DNA of 43,625 nt, from positions 1-43,625 of IMG/VR virus record IMGVR_UViG_3300035183_000822; one strand, written 5' to 3'. Below are positions 31,504-41,373 of the stretch, in pieces; positions within the stretch are counted from its first letter, which is position 1, and every line of letters starts with the position of its first letter. The notes under the pieces were generated by a model. The model saw only the letters and a program-made list of their open reading frames with translations, had not been told where the DNA came from and ran no database searches. Position numbers and translations under genes: made by a program. Origin of the DNA: a virus.

Positions 31504-32664
31504 TTAAGGTGCAAAGTAGGGCGCATCAGCGGCACCTATGCTGGCGATCTCGGCTGGGTTCATACCAAGCCCAACGAGCTCTTGTACTGTGAGTTTGGTG
31601 CTGGTATTGTTAAAAGCCGGCGGCACCTGTGGCAGCTGCTCGACGCGCCTGAGCGCGTTGCCTCCGGCCACAAAGTTAACGCTCGTGCCCGTCGCAATGG
31701 GCGGTCCCTTGCTGCCAGTCGGGGGGAGAACCTGCGTTGGGACGTAGTAGAAGGCCGAGTTCTGGTTGCCAAACAGGTTGCCCTGCCGGTAGGCTGCCAG
31801 GTTGAAGCTGCTGAACTCGCTCGGAGCCCAGCTTTCCTTGAGGTTCAGGCTGACGTCAAGGATGACCGGGAAGGGCTCGTTGGCGAGCGTCGGGATGTAG
31901 TCAACGTCGTTGGGGAACGTCCACCCAAAGCTCTCCAGCACGCACTTTACGGGCCCAATCATCCTTGGCCCAAAGGCCTGCAGGGTGATGATTGGCGGTG
32001 GCGCGCCCAGGGTGGCTGTAACGGTCCGGCTGCCGTACTGGGGCATCACCCAGGACCGGATGATGTTCAGGTAACGGAGGTTCTGCTCAGCCTCCTCCCT
32101 AGTTCTGGAGATGAGCTTGCCGCTGACTGTCCAGGTTCTCGCGGAGGTTTTGCGGTACTTAAGGATCGACCCTGGGTGATGCACTGGGTTAAACTCAACG
32201 TACTCCGCGGACTGCCCCTCCTGGATAGTCGGCATCACGGTTAGAACGATGGTGTCCTCCTGCGTGCCAAGCACGTTGCTCGCGCTCAGCTTGACCTTTA
32301 GCTCGGCAGTGTCGGCGATCGGCTGGTCCTTGATCAGCTCCACTGGCAGCAGGTCTTCATCGTTCCTGACGGTCAGCTGCTGGAGGGGAGCCCCGGTTGT
32401 TGAGTCCACCAGGAAGGTCCCCGGTAGCCCCTTGGAAGCTAGCCCAAGGTTGGCCGACATGGCGCTAAAGTCGGTGATGTTGCCGGCCTTGATTGTCTTG
32501 TTGGTGGCTTCGCCCAGGCGCTGGGCTATGGTAGGCAGCGCGTGGTTGGTTACCTGCTGTAGCCCGCCGCTGAGCAGGTTGATCGCGTTGTTGGCCGCGC
32601 CCTCTGCCTGGCGTTGAACCGTGGGCAGCAGCTGCGTGTTGACTAAGATATCACGCGCTGGCAT
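31504..32664 (-). CDS. Probable tail-tube initiator/cap protein (gp48/gp54-like)
   Basis: A 386-residue protein. The centre has HHPGSILKYRKTSARTWTVS, REEAEQNLRYLNIIRSWVMP and IGPVKCVLESFGWTFPNDVD. Short helices flank strand pairs that end in FPVILDVSLNLKESWAPSEF. This arrangement is typical of tube-like proteins that sit on the hub and start tail-tube polymerisation. The C-terminal tail (LTVQELVGLGMNPAEIASIG) could be a flexible binding segment. It overlaps the nucleotidyltransferase gene by 14 bases and precedes the gp53-like gene, so it is in the baseplate operon. The gp48/gp54 comparison is a fold-pattern judgement, not clear sequence identity. Confidence 0.5.
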   Translation of the reverse strand: MPARDILVNTQLLPTVQRQAEGAANNAINLLSGGLQQVTNHALPTIAQRLGEATNKTIKAGNITDFSAMSANLGLASKGLPGTFLVDSTTGAPLQQLTVRNDEDLLPVELIKDQPIADTAELKVKLSASNVLGTQEDTIVLTVMPTIQEGQSAEYVEFNPVHHPGSILKYRKTSARTWTVSGKLISRTREEAEQNLRYLNIIRSWVMPQYGSRTVTATLGAPPPIITLQAFGPRMIGPVKCVLESFGWTFPNDVDYIPTLANEPFPVILDVSLNLKESWAPSEFSSFNLAAYRQGNLFGNQNSAFYYVPTQVLPPTGSKGPPIATGTSVNFVAGGNALRRVEQLPQVPPAFNNTSTKLTVQELVGLGMNPAEIASIGAADAPYFAP

Positions 32665-33349
32665 CTGTACCCTCTTGCAGCGCTGCCTTGACGGCGTTGA
32701 ACAGCCGCCGCGCTAGGGCCTCCTTGCCCTCGAGCCCGGTCAGCTCCATGAACTCCGGGAACAGATCGTGCTCGACGGCCGCGCGCACCACCGAGGCCGA
32801 GATCTGCTCAACGTCAAGCGTGCCGCGCTTCTCCAGCTGCTGGAGCGCCGCGTCGACCGCTGACTTGGGTGCCGGGTCTCCGTCCCGGTCAAGCGTTAGC
32901 GCGTGGTGCTTGATCGGGGACCCGTCCGTGGCCGTAAAGTACCTGTCAAGGAGCTCGACGTACTTAGCGGCCCGGTCGTCCCCGGCTACCACGAGGATGG
33001 GCTCCAGCCCAGCTTCGCGCATGGCTGCAAACCCGGCCAACGGGTCCGTGGCCGTCATGAACTTTACCCCGTTGGCGTGCCCCGAGGCCTGCATGAACTT
33101 GATCCGCTGCTCCGCCGTCAGCGGGTTGCGGCGGCGGTCCTCGCTTGACTTAATCCCAGCGATGACGATGACGACCGGGCTAGCCAGGAGGTTGAGCTTG
33201 GGGTGCTTCCGGATGTGCGCCTTGGCAGCGCTGATCAGCGCGTAGTGCCCCTTGGTCGGGGGGTTGAACCGGCCAACGATCACGGCAGCCCGTTCCTTGC
33301 CAGGAGGCGGGAGCTTGGGCTCTGGGCTGGTTGCCTTCGGGTTAACCAT
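32651..33349 (-). CDS. Nucleotidyltransferase (cytidylyltransferase/NMNAT-like)
   Basis: A 232-residue enzyme of the nucleotidyltransferase alpha/beta phosphodiesterase superfamily. AVIVGRFNPPTKGHYALI carries the HxGH-type signature (here T-x-G-H), and EQISASVVRAAV near residue 185 corresponds to the ISxTxxR motif. Such enzymes join a nucleotide to a small phosphate compound, for example NMN to AMP in NAD synthesis; substrate cannot be told here. The frame stays open to an ATG at 33394, but that codon overlaps the late promoter GATAAATA at 33385-33392. A transcript from there would start after it, so I chose the ATG at 33349. No strong Shine-Dalgarno is present. It is the first gene of the baseplate transcript, an odd position for a metabolic enzyme. 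A protein-modifying role is possible. Confidence 0.75.
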   Translation of the reverse strand: MVNPKATSPEPKLPPPGKERAAVIVGRFNPPTKGHYALISAAKAHIRKHPKLNLLASPVVIVIAGIKSSEDRRRNPLTAEQRIKFMQASGHANGVKFMTATDPLAGFAAMREAGLEPILVVAGDDRAAKYVELLDRYFTATDGSPIKHHALTLDRDGDPAPKSAVDAALQQLEKRGTLDVEQISASVVRAAVEHDLFPEFMELTGLEGKEALARRLFNAVKAALQEGTDASA

Positions 33350-33384
33350 GCGTTGTGGGCTCGCGGGGGGACATTGTTCTTGTT

Positions 33385-33392
33385 TATTTATC
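33385..33392 (-). promoter_or_regulatory. T4-type late promoter GATAAATA for the baseplate operon
   Basis: The minus strand reads GATAAATA, 35 bases before the chosen ATG of the nucleotidyltransferase. It would drive the genes from 33349 leftwards. It lies back to back with the sigma70-like promoter of the gp55-like gene on the other strand. Confidence 0.6.
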
Positions 33393-33420
33393 ATCCGTGG
33401 GCATTCGCGGGAGAGCGCGC

Positions 33421-33490: not shown

Positions 33491-34267
33491 TTGAAAAAAA
33501 TAAAGCGGGTAAAGCGGGAAAAGAGCACCACCACGAAAGGGCACTATGTAACAAACGCCCAACTTCTGCCAGCGGTGATCGAGGCTAAGCAGCTTGGCCG
33601 GGTAACGAACCGGCTCGCGAAGATGCTGCTGCTCATCGCTGAGCGCTATTCTAGAAAGTCCTGGTTTTCTGGGTACTCATACCGTGAGGACATGGTCGCC
33701 CACGCGGTGGCGAACTTGTGCCAAAACGCGCTCAAGTTCGATCACACAAGGTTCAATAACCCGTTCGCCTATTATACAACAGCGATCCATAACTCTTTTC
33801 AGCAGTACAAGGGGGAAGAAAAGAAGCACCGCGACACGCGGGACGCCCTGCTGGTAAAGGCTGGCGCCAATCCTTCTTTCACCTACCTCGAGGAGCATGA
33901 GCGTGAAGAGCATGAAGCTGCCCTGAAGCCTGAGGAAGAGAAGGAGCTGCCTGAGAGCGAGGCTGTTGACCAGATCGATGATGATCTCGGCTTGATTGCT
34001 AGCAACCTTGATAAAGCTAAGAAAGAAGGCAAGCGAAGCAAAGTTACCCCTAAGAGCACCGTAAGAGCTGAAGCTCACGCCTCTGGTCCCGTCAAAGTTT
34101 ATAAGCCAGGAGCGTTTGTACAGGATGAGAACGGTAACCTTTCGTTCCTCGATGAGGAGCTTGTCAACGTAAAAAAGGTTACCAAGCATGAGCTGGTGAT
34201 TACCCCAAAGAAAAAACCGCGCGTTGATGATAGTAAGCTGAGCAAGAAGCGCGCGTTGAAAAAGTAA
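33491..34267 (+). CDS. 55: Late-gene sigma factor, T4 gp55-like
   Basis: A 258-residue sigma-70-family protein related to T4 gp55, which directs host RNA polymerase to TATAAATA late promoters. Residues ~40-115 hold the conserved core: [14 protein letters not shown], then [18 protein letters not shown], then [20 protein letters not shown] and [13 protein letters not shown]. These align with gp55's FSGYT...EMIADGIEA and [30 protein letters not shown] at 216-224 resembles the sliding-clamp-binding end of T4 gp55 (SLDFLYE). Here it is followed by ~35 further, Lys-rich residues instead of being terminal. T4 gp55 has 185 residues. The frame has no ATG near its start; a TTG at 33491 with GGAG seven bases upstream fits. 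It heads the plus-strand group with gp47 and gp46. Confidence 0.9.
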   Translation: [258 protein letters not shown]

Positions 34268-34284: not shown

Positions 34285-35316
34285 ATGCCAAGCAAAAAGC
34301 TAGCGATGTTCACGGACATCCACTTTGGGAAGAAGAACAACTCACCCCAGCACAACCAGGACTGCCTTGACTTCGTTGACTGGTTTTGCCGCCGGGTAAC
34401 TGAAGAGGGCAACGTAACGCACATCCTTTTCCTAGGCGACTGGTTTGAGAACCGCAACTCAGTTAACGTGTTAACCTTGACATACGCGCACGAGGCGCTG
34501 CGTCGGTTGACGAGCTTGGGTCTCCCGATCTACATGCTGGTAGGTAACCACGATCTCTACTACCGTGAGAACCGGAAGATCTATTCGACTAGGATCTTCG
34601 GGGACTTCAAGCACATCACCATGGTCAACGAGCCAACCGTGCTTGATCGTGACTTGCTGCTTTGCCCGTTCATCTTCAAGGAAGAGGGTGGTGAGCTGGC
34701 AAAGTTTAGGACCGTGCCGTTCTGGTTTGGGCACTTTGAGTTCAAGAACTTTATCATCACCGGGTCTGACCGGCGGATGGAAACCGGCCTCGAGCACACG
34801 TTGTTCAAGGAGCAGCGCTACATCTTCACGGGGCACTTTCACAAGCGTCAAGCCCAGGACAACGTCATCTACATCGGCAACACTTTCCCTATGGACTACG
34901 GGGATGCTGGCGATGATGCGCGAGGGTGCTGCTTTTTCGACGTTGCCGCTGATAAGGTCTGGTTTGAAGATTGGGTCGAAGCCCCGACATACAGGAAGAT
35001 CCGGTTATCGGAGGTGCTAGGTGGTAACATCGCCTTCCCTAGCAAGTGCCGGGTTCGTTGCCTGGTCGATACCGAGATCCTTTATTCAGAGGCGCAGGCA
35101 CTGCGCGAGGAGATGGTGAAGCTATATGACCTGCGGGAGTTCTCCCTGGAAGAGAACGAGGAAGAAAAGCGCGCTGTCCTTGAGGGTGAGGACGTGATCG
35201 AAACGTTCGAGCTTAGCTCGTTGAATGACGCCGTAGTCAAGATGATCAAGACAGGCATCCAAGGCACCAACGCGATCAACCCTGATCGACTGGTTGACAT
35301 CTACCTAGCACTATAA
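34285..35316 (+). CDS. 47: Recombination nuclease subunit, gp47 (SbcD/Mre11-like)
   Basis: A 343-residue metallophosphoesterase nuclease. Motifs in order are TDIHFG (D11, H13), FLGDWFENRN (D52), VGNHD (N88, H89), FGHFEF (H150) and TGHFHKRQ (H184, H186), the full Mre11 active-site set for two metal ions. The C-terminal ~100 residues are helical and charged (EENEEEKRAVLEGEDVIETF) and should bind the gp46 ATPase. With gp46 it resects DNA ends for recombination-dependent replication and host DNA breakdown. T4 gp47 has 339 residues. It starts 17 bases after the gp55-like stop, with a GGAG about 12 bases before the ATG, and ends 13 bases before gp46, so the three form one operon. Confidence 0.95.
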   Translation: MPSKKLAMFTDIHFGKKNNSPQHNQDCLDFVDWFCRRVTEEGNVTHILFLGDWFENRNSVNVLTLTYAHEALRRLTSLGLPIYMLVGNHDLYYRENRKIYSTRIFGDFKHITMVNEPTVLDRDLLLCPFIFKEEGGELAKFRTVPFWFGHFEFKNFIITGSDRRMETGLEHTLFKEQRYIFTGHFHKRQAQDNVIYIGNTFPMDYGDAGDDARGCCFFDVAADKVWFEDWVEAPTYRKIRLSEVLGGNIAFPSKCRVRCLVDTEILYSEAQALREEMVKLYDLREFSLEENEEEKRAVLEGEDVIETFELSSLNDAVVKMIKTGIQGTNAINPDRLVDIYLAL

Positions 35317-35329
35317 GGGAACGAGCGCT

Positions 35330-37123
35330 GTGACAGCCACTGTGACAGCAGCTGTGACTGCTAGGCTTGTGCTCAAGCAGCTACAGCTGCGTAACTTCCT
35401 TTCCTTCGGCAATAACTTGACTGAGATCGATCTCAGCCAACCAGGCAGCACCCTCATCCAAGGCGAGAACCTGGACGCGAACACGGCCAACGGCGCCGGC
35501 AAGACCACGATCTTCAACGCTATCTGCTACGCCATCTACAACAAGCCGTTTGACAACATCTCCCTCCAGCGCCTCATCAACTCGACGAACTCCCCGAAGA
35601 ACACCTTGATGGAGGTTAGGTTGACCTTCACTAAGGGGAACGATGAGTACGAGGTTTACCGGTGCCGTGGGGAAAGCACCAACGTGCGGGTTGTCCGCAA
35701 CGGGGAAGATATAACGCTGGACAGCATCGCCGAGACCGACGCCGTGATCGAGGAGATCGTCGGGCTCTCATATGACCTGTTTACCAAGATCATTATCTTC
35801 TCTGGCAGCTCTACGCCGTTCTTGCAGCTGCCGGTGCAACCGCAGCGCCAGCTCATCGAGGAGCTGTTCAACATCACCCTGCTCTCCGAGAAGGCGGTCC
35901 GCCTCAAGGAGATCATCAGGGAAACAGAAAAGGACATCGTTGTTCAGGCCGCCGTTATCAAGGAGCAAGAGGGCGCCATCAACCTTTACAACCGGCAGCT
36001 GAAAGAGGCGCAGGGCCGGCGGGACCGGTGGGAGCAAGAGCGGGCTGCCCAGCTCAGCGCCCTGAAGGAGCAGCTAGAGCTGCTATCGTCGCTTGACCTT
36101 GAGCAAGAGCGCCAGCTGCACGAGCAGGTGGAAGAGCTCAAGGCCGCAAAGCGGGAGCGCGACCTGGCCTGCTCCATCCTCAGCAAGGACCACCGGCAGC
36201 TAACCAAAGACGTGAGCACCCTAGAGGGTGAGGTCAAGCACCTCCTGGAGGATAAGTGCCCATATTGCCTGCAGCGTTACGCTGGCGCCGCGGAGAAGCT
36301 GCACCAGCAGGAGGAGTTGCTGGAGCAAAAGCGCGAGCAGCTGCGGGCGCTCAGCGAGCAGCTAGGGGCCGCCCAAGCCGACGTTACCGAGCTGACCGCG
36401 GCGCTCAAGGAGCTAGAGGCAAAGCTCACCCTGCCGTCCCACCGCGCCGTGCTTGAGGCCAAGGCCAACCGCGAGACCATAGCGCATCGGCTTCAAGAGC
36501 TGGCTACCGCTACGAACCCGCACGAGGAGGCGCTGGCGCTGCTTGAGCAGCACCGCCCAGCGCCGGTTGCCTATGAGCGGCTAGATGAGCTTAAGCGCGA
36601 CCTTGAGCACCAGGAGTTCCTGCTGAAGCTGTTAACTGACAAGAACTCGTTCATCCGGCGAAAGATCATCAACCGGATGATCCCGTTCCTGAATGCCCGG
36701 CTTGAGCACTACACGAGGAGCCTGGGAGTAACCCACCTCATCCGGTTCGATGACAACATGACGTGCACGGTCTCGGAGTATGGGCGGGAGCTGGACTTCG
36801 GTAACCTGTCAAGCGGGGAGAAAAAGCGGGTCAATTTTTCGCTCTCGCTCGCCTTCAGGGACGTGCTCCACCACCTCCACTACAAGGTCAACGGTCTATT
36901 CATTGATGAAATTGACGGCTCACTCGATGCCACCGGCGTTGAAGCCATCTTCAAGCTGCTCAAGCAGAAAACGCGCGATGAGCGTCTCTCGCTGTTTATC
37001 ATCTCCCACCGGCCAGAGGCAGTTGGCCGGTTTGACCGGCAGCTGCTCATCCGCAAGCAGAACGGGTTCTCCCGCGTGATTAACCCAGGCGAAGAAGAGG
37101 GCGCCGCTGGCTTAGCCCTGTAG
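35330..37123 (+). CDS. 46: Recombination ATPase subunit, gp46 (SbcC/Rad50-like)
   Basis: A 597-residue SMC-type ATPase. It has LQLRNFLSFGNN at ~18-29, Walker A NGAGKTT at 54-60, a long coiled coil with a zinc-hook CPYC near residue 308, the ABC signature LSSGEKKRVNFSLSLAF (~490), Walker B GLFIDEIDGSLD (~520) and an H-loop FIISHRPE (~560). It partners gp47 in DNA-end processing. T4 gp46 has 560 residues. The first codon I accept is GTG at 35330. Two more in-frame GTG codons follow at 35342 and 35354 within a 12-base imperfect repeat, and the conserved region only begins after residue ~12, so the exact start is uncertain. Confidence 0.95.
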   Translation: MTATVTAAVTARLVLKQLQLRNFLSFGNNLTEIDLSQPGSTLIQGENLDANTANGAGKTTIFNAICYAIYNKPFDNISLQRLINSTNSPKNTLMEVRLTFTKGNDEYEVYRCRGESTNVRVVRNGEDITLDSIAETDAVIEEIVGLSYDLFTKIIIFSGSSTPFLQLPVQPQRQLIEELFNITLLSEKAVRLKEIIRETEKDIVVQAAVIKEQEGAINLYNRQLKEAQGRRDRWEQERAAQLSALKEQLELLSSLDLEQERQLHEQVEELKAAKRERDLACSILSKDHRQLTKDVSTLEGEVKHLLEDKCPYCLQRYAGAAEKLHQQEELLEQKREQLRALSEQLGAAQADVTELTAALKELEAKLTLPSHRAVLEAKANRETIAHRLQELATATNPHEEALALLEQHRPAPVAYERLDELKRDLEHQEFLLKLLTDKNSFIRRKIINRMIPFLNARLEHYTRSLGVTHLIRFDDNMTCTVSEYGRELDFGNLSSGEKKRVNFSLSLAFRDVLHHLHYKVNGLFIDEIDGSLDATGVEAIFKLLKQKTRDERLSLFIISHRPEAVGRFDRQLLIRKQNGFSRVINPGEEEGAAGLAL

Positions 37124-37369: not shown

Positions 37370-37909
37370 ATGAAACCTGGTGGTGGCAAGGCCAAAGGGA
37401 ACGCCTTTGAGGCGTCCGTGGCTAAGCTCTTGTCAAAGCACCTAGCGCCCCTTAACTTTGTGCGCACCCAGTCGTCTGGCGCCAGGGTGGGCGGGAAGAA
37501 CTTTGGGACGATCGGCCAGCTGTTCGGGGAGGACGCGCTTAAGCTCTTCGTCGGCGACGTCGTGCCAGTTAACGAGCGGGCCGTTGGGCTGCGCTTCAGG
37601 TTCAGCGTCGAGTGCAAGTTCTATAAAACCCCAGACAGCTTCCCAGCGCTGGTGGCTGGTACGGCCAACATCTTCAAGTGGTTCAACGAGGCGCGCGTTG
37701 ACGCAGAGAAGGTTGACAAGGAACCGGCGCTGATCTTCAAGTGGAATAACACCAGGATCTTCGTCGCGATGCCGCTGCAGCCAGCGCCAACCGTGGACCT
37801 GCGCCGGGTCATCATCAGCGACGGCAGCAGCACTGAACGGCTCTTGGCGGTCTACGACCTGCAAGCGCTCTTGCAGTTTCCAACTTTTTGGTACGCTTCT
37901 AGCAGCTAG
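37370..37909 (+). CDS. PD-(D/E)XK nuclease, Holliday-junction-resolvase-like
   Basis: A 179-residue protein. Active-site-type residues appear in the order found in Hjc/RecU-like nucleases: GKAKGNAFEASVAKLL (E14), RTQSSGA (~32-38), LFVGDVV (D63) and FSVECKFYK (E81, K83). Hjc-type enzymes cut four-way DNA junctions; related ones cut branched or abnormal DNA during packaging or repair. T4 uses the unrelated gp49 (endonuclease VII) for this, so this could be its functional substitute. AAGGA lies 11 bases before the ATG and a late-type promoter about 100 bases upstream. The next gene starts three bases after its stop. A restriction- or tRNA-type nuclease cannot be ruled out. Confidence 0.65.
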   Translation: MKPGGGKAKGNAFEASVAKLLSKHLAPLNFVRTQSSGARVGGKNFGTIGQLFGEDALKLFVGDVVPVNERAVGLRFRFSVECKFYKTPDSFPALVAGTANIFKWFNEARVDAEKVDKEPALIFKWNNTRIFVAMPLQPAPTVDLRRVIISDGSSTERLLAVYDLQALLQFPTFWYASSS

Positions 37910-37912
37910 CAG

Positions 37913-38572
37913 ATGGATACCCAACCAACGATCACGTGGAGCGCGCGGTGCGACGTGCTGAGGCCGGTTGGCGAGCATGATTTCAGCGACCTTAACCGGA
38001 TCATCGCGGCCTACTTTGAAGCGTACAGCCGCCTCAGCGCCTTCATCGGGCCGTGGAACGCCAAGCAGGTTGGCTCCACGTTCCCGTACCGCCCGCCCGA
38101 GCGGCAGCAGCTGCTAGCGGTGCTCGGGCGCCCGCGCCCGTACGTTAGCGAGCGGGCCTACGCAGCGATGGTTGAGGCAGCGATCGACTTCTGCGCCAGG
38201 ACGAAGGGCCGGCGGCAGCTGATCCTGCCAAGCGCGGTCACCCACCACTCGGCCCAGTTTTTGCCGGGGCTGTTTAGCTTAAAGCGCGCTGAGCCCCAAC
38301 CAGAGCTGTTTAGGCCAAGGGGGCACCGTCAGCCCCAAAGCGTGCGCTCCGTGACCGAGCTCACGCTCTTTGGGGCGAGCTCGCCGGTATACGTGGAGAA
38401 CCTGACCATGCACCCCAACGACGTGAAGCTCATCATCGTCCGGCCTAGGCTGGGCAAGCTGGCGACGCCCAACCTGCTGAGGTGGGAGGCCCTCTTCTTC
38501 AGGCGAACCGGTGGTTACCTGATCGAGCACGTGGACACCGCCATCAACCCGCGGTGGTCTGGGATCATCTAG
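37913..38572 (+). CDS. Unidentified protein downstream of the nuclease
   Basis: A 219-residue soluble, Arg-rich protein. The N-terminal half is helical (DLNRIIAAYFEAYSRLSAFI, then YAAMVEAAIDFCARTKGRR). The second half is strand-rich with NDVKLIIVRPRLGKLATPNL and RWEALFFRRTGGYLIEHVDT. No known catalytic motif is visible. It starts three bases after the nuclease stop, so the two share a transcript and perhaps a pathway. The tail of the gene is followed by a plus-strand terminator at 38651-38677. I do not recognise a family. Confidence 0.55.
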   Translation: MDTQPTITWSARCDVLRPVGEHDFSDLNRIIAAYFEAYSRLSAFIGPWNAKQVGSTFPYRPPERQQLLAVLGRPRPYVSERAYAAMVEAAIDFCARTKGRRQLILPSAVTHHSAQFLPGLFSLKRAEPQPELFRPRGHRQPQSVRSVTELTLFGASSPVYVENLTMHPNDVKLIIVRPRLGKLATPNLLRWEALFFRRTGGYLIEHVDTAINPRWSGII

Positions 38573-38690: not shown

Positions 38691-38945
38691 ATGAACCTGA
38701 AAGCGGCAAAGAAGCTGAGAAAGCTTGTTCACCTGCTCCAAGAGAAGGGCACCATCGAGAGCAAAGCCTGGGTGGAGTATGGCGTGCGTAACCGCACGCT
38801 GACGCGGGTAGCTAGAGATAAGGAAGGGCACCTTAAGGAGGTTCGCGTGCCGGACCAAACGGTTTGGCTGCTCCCCAGCTGCGGCCGGGGCGTCTATCAA
38901 CAAATGAAACGGCAGGCTAAGCGGGAGCGCCGGTTCGGACGCTAA
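38691..38945 (+). CDS. Small basic phage protein
   Basis: An 84-residue, strongly basic protein (LKAAKKLRKLVHLLQEKG, then WLLPSCGRGVYQQMKRQAKR). The ending, a Leu-Pro-x-Cys-Gly-Arg stretch before a basic helix, is a pattern I have seen in small phage proteins of unknown function. GAGG stands seven bases before the ATG. It lies just behind a terminator, so it is expressed separately or by read-through. Nucleic-acid binding is possible from charge alone. Function unknown. Confidence 0.6.
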   Translation: MNLKAAKKLRKLVHLLQEKGTIESKAWVEYGVRNRTLTRVARDKEGHLKEVRVPDQTVWLLPSCGRGVYQQMKRQAKRERRFGR

Positions 38946-39004: not shown

Positions 39005-40447
39005 ATGCACAGCTGCGGGACGAACTTCTGCCTTTTAGGTTGGGAAACGTGCCAGGTGCCGGTGACCAGCCCCCTGCACGTGAGCAACTTCCTCAAGGGG
39101 CGCCGGATGTGGTGGCGGACGAGGCGGCAGCGGCAGGCGCTGATCATCGGGCTGGCGCTGGCCTGGCGCCGGGCCGTCCAGCGCGCTGAGCACGCCCCAG
39201 CGCTCCTCGAGCAGACCATCTACCTCTCCGCCCTGGCGCGCCAGGCGCCCGACGCCAAGGAGATCCTGCAGCGGTTCTTCAAGATCGAGCGGCTGGGCTA
39301 CCGGTTCGCCAACGGGCGAGCGGCGCCCACCACCATCACCCCGAGGAAGCTCCCCGGGGAGCTGGTCAAGGAGATCGAGCAGCTGAAGGACGCGGTGGCG
39401 TTTAACCCTGGGCCGCCGCCCCAAGCTCAGCCCGACCTCGTTGCCTCGCGCGTGCAGGTTTGCTCCTCAGCGGGCGAGGACCTGCTCGTGGTCCTTGAGG
39501 CTACTGGCCGGCTCGACCTGGTGCCAGCCGTCAGGTGGCTGCTGGCGCAGCAGGGTCCCATCACCTTCTTCTTTAAGCCCAGCGGCAAGCTTGGCGCGCG
39601 GGACACCTCGGTCTGGCCGATCAGGGCCATCGAGACGTGGCCGGCCTGGCTGCGCTCCCAGCTCTTCGGCACCGCCATCGACCTTAACGTGGCGTTCTGC
39701 CAGTTCCTCATGACAGGGCTCACGCAGAAGCATGGCGCCTCGGCGCGCCAGCTCGCGCTGAAGTACCCTGACCTCGTGCGGCTGCTGGAGGACAGGACCG
39801 CGTTCAGGGCTGAGCTTTGCCGCGAGGTGCTGCACGCTGAGCCAACGCCCGAGAGCACCAAGCTCATCAAGCGGGTGCTCATGGCCATCGCTAACGGGGC
39901 GCCAGTTTCACCCATGCTGCTGGCGCGGCGGTCGCCCAAGAGCAGCGTGGCTGCCGTCTTGGCGCAAGAGGCGCCGTGGCTGACCGAGGCACAGCTGCTC
40001 GCGGCTGGGCAGCGCCTCAAGCGCTTGGCTGACCAGTTCAAGCGGGCCAGGCGGGAGCTTTGCACCTACCTGCTGCGCGAGCGCCCGACCAAGGCGGCCC
40101 AGCGGCGGCTCTTCTGGCGGTACTTTGAGTGGGAGCGCGAGGCGCGCCACAAGCTCTGGCTCGCCGTGGGCCGCACCGGCCTAATGCTGCACGATGGGCT
40201 AGATGGCGTGCAGGTTGACCCTGCGCGCGCCGCCGCCGTGGCCGCTGAGCTCGAGGAGGTTACCGGGCTAAAGATAAGCATTAAGGATAGCAAAAGGGGG
40301 TCAGCTACTGACCCCCTTGCTAAGCGTCCCTTCCAAGTGGCTGAATTCCGGGACCGATCAGATGAACGTCATGCCAGTCTGCGTCTTCTTGGCCGCCTCG
40401 ATGCGCGAGTTGATGAACTCAAGCGCGATCTCCCGCTCGCCGGCTGA
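39005..40447 (+). CDS. Unidentified protein with single-subunit-polymerase-like motifs
   Basis: A 480-residue protein. Three segments occur in the order and style of the A, B and C motifs of family A/T7-type polymerases: AIDLNVAFCQFL (D226), STKLIKRVLMAIANGA (K289, R290, G299) and LMLHDGLDGV (H396, D397). Before motif A, KPSGKLGARDTSVWPIRAIE and PAWLRSQL resemble the R-x-S-S ... lR stretch of family A enzymes. The second motif shares K-R-x-x-M-x-x-A-x-G with T7 RNA polymerase. Spacing is much shorter than in T7. The ATG at 39005 has no Shine-Dalgarno; ATG 39107 has AAGGGG six bases upstream and may be the true start. The last ~55 codons run through a terminator hairpin and into a convergent gene, so the true end is also doubtful. 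Function unproven. Confidence 0.5.
   Translation: MHSCGTNFCLLGWETCQVPVTSPLHVSNFLKGRRMWWRTRRQRQALIIGLALAWRRAVQRAEHAPALLEQTIYLSALARQAPDAKEILQRFFKIERLGYRFANGRAAPTTITPRKLPGELVKEIEQLKDAVAFNPGPPPQAQPDLVASRVQVCSSAGEDLLVVLEATGRLDLVPAVRWLLAQQGPITFFFKPSGKLGARDTSVWPIRAIETWPAWLRSQLFGTAIDLNVAFCQFLMTGLTQKHGASARQLALKYPDLVRLLEDRTAFRAELCREVLHAEPTPESTKLIKRVLMAIANGAPVSPMLLARRSPKSSVAAVLAQEAPWLTEAQLLAAGQRLKRLADQFKRARRELCTYLLRERPTKAAQRRLFWRYFEWEREARHKLWLAVGRTGLMLHDGLDGVQVDPARAAAVAAELEEVTGLKISIKDSKRGSATDPLAKRPFQVAEFRDRSDERHASLRLLGRLDARVDELKRDLPLAG
40291..40318 (-). terminator. Strong terminator hairpin at the convergence point
   Basis: AAGGGGGTCAG (40294-40304) and CTGACCCCCTT (40308-40318) pair perfectly, eleven base pairs with a three-base loop. 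On the minus strand TTTTGCT follows, so it mainly ends the gp26-like transcript. On the plus strand there is no U-run, but it may still slow the opposing transcript. Confidence 0.8.
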
Positions 40448-40588
40448 CATGCGCAGCACCGTCTCGTAGCTCCACGCTCCACGCGAGAAGTACGAGAGCT
40501 CGATCGCGGACCGCACGAGCTGCTTGACCTCCGCGCCAAGCTGCTCGATGATCCGGCGAACCTCGTGCATGTTGCCGTCCCTGATCAT
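40358..40588 (-). CDS. Small protein paired with the gp26-like gene
   Basis: A 76-residue helical protein: IEQLGAEVKQLVRSAIELSY, SRGAWSYETVLRM and SAGEREIALEFINSRIEAAK. This EREIA-x-x-FI pattern occurs in small proteins encoded beside baseplate-hub assembly genes in T4-like phages. Position after gp26 would suit a gp51-like hub-assembly factor, but similarity to T4 gp51 itself is not visible. Its ATG overlaps the gp26-like stop by four bases (ATGA). It is followed by the strong terminator at 40291-40318. Ninety bases of it overlap the end of the opposite-strand frame. Confidence 0.7.
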   Translation of the reverse strand: MIRDGNMHEVRRIIEQLGAEVKQLVRSAIELSYFSRGAWSYETVLRMSAGEREIALEFINSRIEAAKKTQTGMTFI

Positions 40589-41373
40589 TCGGTGAAAAAA
40601 GACACGGGGTTCAGCGGTAGCTGCACGTCAAACTGCTCCCCGCAGTCCTTGCAGGCGACCTGCCAGCGCATGGTCGGTCCCCACTCGTTCAAGCCATCGA
40701 GCTTCTCGATGATGCGGTTGGCCCACGTAACCTGGAGCTGCTCCAGCCACTCGCCGATGAGCCGTGGGTCAGTGACGTTGTCCACGCTCTCGATCACGCT
40801 GAGGAGCAGGGCCTTCAGGTTGCGCTGCATGTCCTGTGCCGTCAGCTCGTGCTTCTCGTGGTTCTCCTTGACCATCTCGATGACGTCGGCGTACCGGTTG
40901 GGGCGGAGCTGGACGAGCTGCCCGTTCGGCAGCGTAACGCTGAACGCCGTCTTAACCGTGGTGGGGTCGATCATCTTCATGCCCACGATCATCTCGTCAA
41001 GGTTTGCGGTGTATGAGTGCTCTTTGGCTTGCGGGCACGTGTGCTTGACGGAGAAGTCGAACATCGGGCCGTACGTCACCACCCGCAGGAACATGGTGAT
41101 GGCGTCGACGTCCTTCGACAGGAGCTGCATGGGACGGTTGACCCCCCGCACGCACGTCTTGAAGACGGTCTCGACGGCGTTGCCGCTGAACAGCTGGTCC
41201 GGGTTCTTCATGATGATCTCATCAAGGGCGGACATCGGCTGCACGTGGACCTCGCCGTTCTTGACCGTGTCATCGAGCTCACCGTGGGTATAAAAGAGCC
41301 CCCGCGATGGGAGCTGAAAGATCCGCCCCGGCAGCTTAGCGTTGGCCAAGAGCGGGTTTGCTTGCTCTGTCAT
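40585..41373 (-). CDS. 26: Baseplate protein, gp26-like (T4 baseplate family)
   Basis: A 262-residue protein. It opens with the segment LPGRIFQLPSRGLFYTHGEL, then PMSALDEIIMKNPDQLFSGN and FKTCVRGVNRPMQLLSKDVD, characteristic of the T4 baseplate/gp26 family, which helps assemble the hub. HTCPQAKEH in the middle and CKDCGEQF near the end provide Cys/His residues that could bind a metal ion. T4 gp26 has 208 residues. No clear Shine-Dalgarno precedes the ATG at 41373. The likely promoter is far away (41693-41700), giving a leader of about 310 bases. The 76-residue gene follows with coupled translation. Confidence 0.82.
   Translation of the reverse strand: MTEQANPLLANAKLPGRIFQLPSRGLFYTHGELDDTVKNGEVHVQPMSALDEIIMKNPDQLFSGNAVETVFKTCVRGVNRPMQLLSKDVDAITMFLRVVTYGPMFDFSVKHTCPQAKEHSYTANLDEMIVGMKMIDPTTVKTAFSVTLPNGQLVQLRPNRYADVIEMVKENHEKHELTAQDMQRNLKALLLSVIESVDNVTDPRLIGEWLEQLQVTWANRIIEKLDGLNEWGPTMRWQVACKDCGEQFDVQLPLNPVSFFTE

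Follow-up and report, generated by a model that had tools for sequence, protein, structure and literature searches.

The TV-Pols were defined by Iyer, Abhiman and Aravind (2008; PMC2579912), who predicted them to be primase-polymerases of mobile elements and small viruses. Extra divergent PolAs that stand beside a regular polymerase, divPolA1 and divPolA2, were reported by Yutin et al. (2024; PMC11348598), and repair or RNA synthesis was suggested for divPolA2. The PolA-SSB primases, among which CcPol primes de novo together with MP, were described by Rice (2023; PMC10061031). A comparison of jumbo phages (PMC7824862) reports that one group has a minimal Pol III alpha in addition to PolB. With divPolA1, divPolA2 and this Pol III alpha as examples, a second polymerase in a large phage has precedent.

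The replisome of phage T4 is the textbook example and contains a single family B polymerase and a single primase. A clade of its giant relatives keeps a second, quite different polymerase (here called pol) beside the normal replicase. The copy described below lies in a window of 43,625 nt, which is the whole stretch of DNA analysed (positions 1 to 43,625 of IMG/VR record IMGVR_UViG_3300035183_000822). No description of the pol family was found in the open-access PMC papers searched.

Motifs, conservation and structure model of pol

The initial annotation gave the ORF as 39005-40288. The start and the product length of 480 aa were right, but the end was set too early, as the frame runs on the + strand from the ATG at 39005 to 40447 (stop included). 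It had also pointed to AIDLNVAFCQFL, LIKRVLMAIANGA and LMLHDGLDGV, with D226, K289/R290 and H396/D397, all of which are present in the 480-aa product in that order, and the spacing it gave is that of the window protein (63 residues from motif A to B, 107-108 from B to C). The gene and its motifs are as follows.

39005-40447, +: pol, compact 480-aa polymerase of the family A superfamily (PolA/T7 RNAP-type), from a 48-member alignment, an AF2 model and Foldseek matches to Taq polymerases
39560-39616, +: beta-hairpin (186-193/199-204) with G194, L196 and invariant R199, in the region equivalent to the PolA GRL..PNLQN hairpin (model DSSP, invariance)
39671-39712, +: motif A, strand 223-227 with D226, then D(I/L)(E/D)xA(Y/F)xQ(F/Y) (model, alignment)
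39869-39904, +: motif B, fingers helix 282-296 with K289xxxM293xxAN297G298(S/A), in the register of T7 RNAP K631-G640 (model, alignment)
40181-40210, +: motif C, hairpin 393-395/398-402 with H396-D397-G398 at the turn, HDGxDG (model, alignment)

Relatives of pol occur in at least 61 IMG/VR viral contigs and one MAG contig (counted from the search lists). Direct searches of IMG/VR gave a copy 98% identical (L002) and a protein 37% identical (L003). Many further relatives came from searches with degenerate DNA patterns, one set covering the region of motif C and the other the hairpin preceding motif A, and were confirmed by HMM search with E values far under 1e-50. The resulting alignment (A3) holds 48 distinct proteins with 30-98% identity to the window protein and a median length of 418 aa. 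Nineteen positions are invariant in 48/48: G194, L196, R199, S202, R217, D226, R268, K289, M293, N297, G298, W376, E377, R381, H396, D397, G398, D400 and G401. These include both aspartates, D226 and D397, whose conservation had been named as a check. R290 is variable (R in 18, K in 14, others in the remainder). Many members read DIENAY, VKxLIMALANGS and HDG, and the spacing is 60-65 residues from motif A to B and 106-108 from B to C. The motif pattern is far beyond chance, and the gene is under purifying selection even among near-identical copies (dN 0.0075 and dS 0.053 between the window and L002).

No match to pol was given by Pfam, PHROGs or NCBIfam models or by a sequence search of the PDB, and tblastn found no homologue in INPHARED phages or PLSDB plasmids. 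Weak tblastn matches in Streptomyces and Aeromonas phages (E 2-5) were discarded, the Streptomyces one being antisense to an annotated gene. Pfam detected neither PolA (PF00476) nor RNA_pol (PF00940) in the 48 members, no exonuclease in their N-terminal region, and no AEP or D5 domain in pol; PF00476 was also absent from all 25 larger contigs surveyed below. A weak PF00940 match in contig G004 (E 0.006) lies elsewhere on the contig and is not pol.

The AF2 model computed with A3 has a pLDDT of 85.6 and a pTM of 0.76, confidence being low at the N terminus (15-20 residues) and in the C-terminal extension; it supersedes an earlier run on three sequences, which was poor (pLDDT 51.6). An N-terminal region of about 180 residues is followed by the hairpin 186-193/199-204, the motif A strand 223-227, helices, and the fingers helix 282-296, which carries K289. 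A helical stretch as far as residue 387 then leads to the hairpin 393-395/398-402, with H396-D397 in its turn, a helix (406-420) and a strand (424-427). In family A polymerases, palm and fingers begin with a hairpin and the motif A strand; the O helix comes next, then the hairpin of motif C, and finally a helix and a strand. The model of pol shows this palm layout, and the features of the superfamily are present in it: the motif A Asp ends a palm strand, HD sits at a hairpin turn, and a Lys lies on the fingers helix between motifs A and C.

In a Foldseek search of 350,542 PDB chains, the two top matches were Taq-type DNA polymerases, namely 8xk7_A (described as DNA polymerase SFM4-3, which we take to be a Taq derivative; E 4.6e-4, probability 1.00) and Taq 1tau (E 0.014, probability 0.99), while T7 DNA polymerase (1sl2) ranked 10th of 105. 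Global TM-scores were low (0.32-0.34, rmsd 10-11 A), so that the match spans the core and not the whole arrangement. The best BFVD matches were uncharacterised phage proteins (E 8.5e-10 and 2.5e-7); others were a Pyramimonas virus replication protein, a virophage helicase/primase/polymerase (probability 1.00) and a phage PolA (probability 0.98). A palm fold had been proposed as the structural check, and both the modelled topology and the leading PDB matches agree with it. Together with the invariant residues, the palm model supports the original suggestion of a compact polymerase with Pol A/T7 RNAP-type motifs A, B and C in a T4-type phage.

That pol is an unrelated protein whose motifs match by coincidence, as read by eye, might be argued from the lack of a significant profile match in Pfam, PHROGs, NCBIfam and the PDB. 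This is largely refuted, and we give it next to no weight, because exactly these residues are invariant, a palm topology is modelled, and Taq and T7 DNA polymerases are among the leading fold matches in the 350,542 PDB chains. Scarcely more credit is due to the idea that pol keeps the palm fold for some other action, either as a transferase that needs no template or in a structural or regulatory capacity. The unusual N297 in motif B and the novel N-terminal region would suit it, but the predicted catalytic residues are all invariant (48/48), and a dead enzyme would not need them.

Replication genes, the conserved block and the proposed role of pol

Replication genes were surveyed in 25 larger contigs with pol (87-368 kb), in each of which pol was found once. 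A T4-type family B polymerase was matched in 20 of these, as expected from the earlier proposal of a second polymerase beside a family B replicase. A gp61-type primase was present in 21 and a gp41/DnaB-type helicase match in 22 (one marginal, E 6.7e-5); the D5 helicase domain (PF08706, D5_N) was found in 0/25. Contigs without a PolB, primase or helicase match belong to the smaller part of the set, at 87-141 kb, and are possibly incomplete. Since T4-type PolB, primase and helicase co-occur with it, pol is not the replicase and is not needed as the only primase. Because it is strictly conserved in this clade of giant T4 relatives, its retention beside the replicase suggests a separate job, such as DNA repair or replication restart.

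Two irregularities were seen among the replication genes. The PolB match is divided between two open frames in G005, G008 and G022 (contigs L131, L145 and L070), which suggests a split gene 43 or an inserted element. In-frame stops occur within the helicase matches of G004, G009, G010, G017 and G018 and within the primase match of G002, where introns, frameshifts or assembly errors are possible.

In nearly all loci with enough sequence, pol is the last gene of a same-strand series in the order gp55 - gp47 - gp46 - PDDEXK - u219 - u84 - pol. On the opposite strand it is followed by a small protein and then a T4-type baseplate protein, with extra genes in between in some contigs. In the window these genes are:

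33491-34267, +: gp55-like late sigma factor (phrog_234, 2.9e-28)
34285-35316, +: gp47-like SbcD subunit (phrog_100, 3.1e-61)
35330-37123, +: gp46-like SbcC subunit of the recombination nuclease (phrog_77, 1.5e-98)
37370-37909, +: PDDEXK_15 endonuclease, RusA-like in PHROGs (Pfam 2.3e-21; phrog_244, 6.2e-19)
37913-38572, +: u219, conserved basic protein of a new family
38691-38945, +: u84, small basic protein (pI 11.0) of a new family, directly upstream of pol; candidate nucleic-acid-binding partner
40358-40588, -: m76, small conserved protein after pol (40/48 loci)
40585-41373, -: T4-type baseplate hub protein, right border of the block (PF12322, 6e-07; phrog_150, 8.6e-10)

The gene u84 was found in 43/48 loci, u219 in 32/48 within the available sequence and PDDEXK in 31/48; many loci end short of the farther genes, and upstream sequence is limited in several of the loci without u84. 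The u84 proteins are strongly basic across loci (median pI 10.3). No helicase was found among the conserved neighbours of pol (48 loci). The window copies of u219 (37913-38572) and u84 (38691-38945) are without a PHROGs match, and u219 has strongly conserved motifs, e.g. FLGPYNARQR and RPKLSKLGTAS. The MAG contig, L150, which had been binned as Omnitrophota, carries pol with gp46, PDDEXK, u219, u84 and baseplate genes and is thus a phage contig.

Judged by gp46, the nearest isolates belong to the PA5oct group of Pseudomonas jumbo phages, together with Phosso, a phage of Sinorhizobium. In these, gp55, gp47, gp46 and the baseplate gene are arranged alike, while u219, u84 and pol are absent from the equivalent site, and the A3 profile found no pol anywhere in the whole genomes of the PA5oct group and Phosso. 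Pairwise identities of pol track gp46 identities (Mantel r 0.90, p 0.001) and u219 identities (0.92). Most simply, this clade would have acquired the block a single time, between the gp46 and baseplate genes, and would then have inherited it with the core.

Two other genes near the block may be mentioned. At the end of the structural cluster the window has a cytidylyltransferase/nucleotidyltransferase-like gene (32651-33394, -), and Phosso has an adenylyltransferase at the matching place. In L003, an ORF that resembles GIY-YIG homing endonucleases by eye (385-1170, -) follows gp46, within the interval of the block.

The function we favour, as probable though well short of certain, is that of an exonuclease-less DNA polymerase of the family A superfamily which serves recombination-dependent replication or repair and perhaps takes part in priming with u84. 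D226 and D397 would coordinate the pair of catalytic metals; contacts to the incoming nucleotide would come from K289 in the fingers helix, and contacts to the template from the R199 hairpin. For replication the phages have a T4-type PolB as well as a primase and a helicase of their own, leaving pol as an accessory enzyme, inherited with the gp46-gp47 recombination nuclease block. Its neighbourhood points to DNA synthesis during recombination-dependent replication or repair, where it may carry out gap filling, repriming or restart. The basic u84 could be its template-binding partner.

Of the possible tasks, DNA synthesis for repair or for recombination-dependent replication seems to us the likeliest; priming with u84 comes second, and transcription is given little weight. 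It is rather doubtful that pol starts chains by itself, whether as a primase of neither the DnaG nor the AEP type or as a small single-subunit RNA polymerase. If it did, the phages of this clade would operate two systems for priming or transcription in parallel. Somewhat less likely again is the more specific case of a primase or primase-polymerase for which u84 provides ssDNA binding, on the model of the SCCmec-encoded PolA-SSB primases (CcPol-MP). The gene just upstream of this small A-type polymerase does encode a small basic protein (43/48 loci), CcPol primes de novo with MP (PMC10061031), and the family A-like mini-polymerases of the TV-Pol group are predicted primases (PMC2579912). However, a gp61-type primase (21/25) and a gp41-type helicase match (22/25) are already there, pol does not adjoin a helicase, and D5 helicases are absent from the 25 contigs.

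With its palm, about 180 unexplained N-terminal residues and no exonuclease, pol widens the idea of a minimal family A polymerase. It could also be of use as a compact enzyme where priming or strand displacement is wanted.

Comparison with known polymerases

Profile comparisons (hhalign), none of which reached significance, gave pol a score of 24.0 against T7-type RNAPs (shuffles 17.5 +/- 2.5, 1 of 60 as high) and, with only three sequences on the other side, 21.7 against TV-Pol-like proteins (shuffles 16.0 +/- 2.2, 2 of 60 as high); against PolA there was no signal above shuffles. In these tests, motif B of T7 RNAP and TV-Pol scored near the top of the null. Direct alignments were not significant with seven T7-type RNAPs, six PolAs, the TV-Pol-like proteins of Ma-LMM01 and Polaromonas, a divPolA2 protein or the short family A protein of phage immuto_3-5A.

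Pol I and Taq (PF00476) are the best fold match, sharing with pol the palm topology, the two Asp, the HD of motif C and the Lys on the fingers helix. Pol differs in lacking an exonuclease and in having N for the motif B tyrosine, and PF00476 misses it. The motif B aromatic is Y766 in E. coli Pol I and Y639 in T7 RNAP; in pol the invariant N297 stands in its place, and the Ma-LMM01 protein also has N. The position five residues after the motif A Asp holds the steric-gate Glu in Pol I and a Gly in T7 RNAP. In A3 it is aromatic in 48/48 (Y in 41, F in 7), and a bulky residue at the steric-gate position would therefore favour the choice of dNTPs.

The likeness to T7 RNAP drawn in the initial annotation holds for motif B, the D-x6-Q spacing of motif A (D..Q spacing 7) and the HD of motif C only; PF00940 and PF00476 both leave the family undetected. 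Motif B, K(R/K)xxMxxANG(S/A), is in register with KRSVMTLAYGS of T7 RNAP, and a role as RNA polymerase was left open for the comparable divPolA2 by Yutin et al. (PMC11348598), so that a compact single-subunit RNA polymerase transcribing a subset of phage genes might be considered. We regard this as improbable. T7-type enzymes (PF00940) are about twice as large (about 800-900 aa against a median of 418) and have an N-terminal promoter domain that pol lacks, N replaces Y639, an aromatic replaces the Gly after the motif A Asp, and the gp55-type late sigma factor points to use of the host RNAP.

With the TV-Pols, pol shares the size range (400-600 aa), the lack of a nuclease domain, a palm with two conserved Asp and the ability to stand alone. 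The motifs are also alike: D(I/V)(E/D)N-like in A, K..(L)(L/M)A..(N/Y)G(A/S) in B and HDG in C, as read from the Ma-LMM01 and Polaromonas proteins, which are taken as TV-Pol by motif match. The former, Microcystis phage Ma-LMM01 MAP_030 (L186:22746-24266), lies beside a transposase and has VKTAVLAVINGA in motif B and QHDG in motif C; it is a hypothetical protein, unannotated as a polymerase, and probably corresponds to the TV-Pol that Iyer et al. named. The latter, from Polaromonas plasmid pH8NP1 (L208:787-2292), has YDIENCH, VKQALLALIYGA and QHDG, and is annotated as a 'Clp protease N-terminal domain-containing protein', apparently a misannotated polymerase. The likeness of pol to these motifs is clear by eye and is a lead, not proof of membership. 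The hairpin Arg is absolutely conserved in TV-Pol; the hairpin of pol (186-204) has the invariant R199, but the position of the GRL Arg is K/R/T/S. Of the TV-Pol RxxxK, K289 is invariant in pol and the R is not conserved (position 285 is I in 27 members, R in 7, others in the rest). TV-Pols are linked or fused to a D5-like helicase or a resolvase, integrase or transposase and occur in small mobile elements, whereas pol is a core gene of giant T4-type phages with phage core and new genes as neighbours. Pol was not filed as a TV-Pol, because the RxxxK and the helicase/recombinase linkage are absent.

CcPol-MP of SCCmec is likewise a small A-type polymerase beside a small basic gene. Its partner is an OB-fold SSB, whereas the u84 adjacent to pol is a candidate partner only, and its operon includes a helicase (COG3378/DUF927) and a recombinase, neither of which was seen among the conserved neighbours of pol. 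The divPolA2 of barbaviruses and relatives is, like pol, a second divergent PolA beside PolB, without an exonuclease and with a novel N-terminal region and an active-looking palm. It differs in its motif C (FDE in AUR84708, HDG in pol) and in its variable neighbourhood, that of pol being fixed; hhalign of pol with the barbavirus-type AUR84708 aligned no motifs and gave no detectable sequence match. TV-Pol, the PolA-SSB primases and divPolA2 are the nearest kinds to pol, and it agrees fully with none of them. What is new here is the pol family itself, together with its constant position inside a conserved recombination block and its presence throughout the clade of giant T4-type phages.
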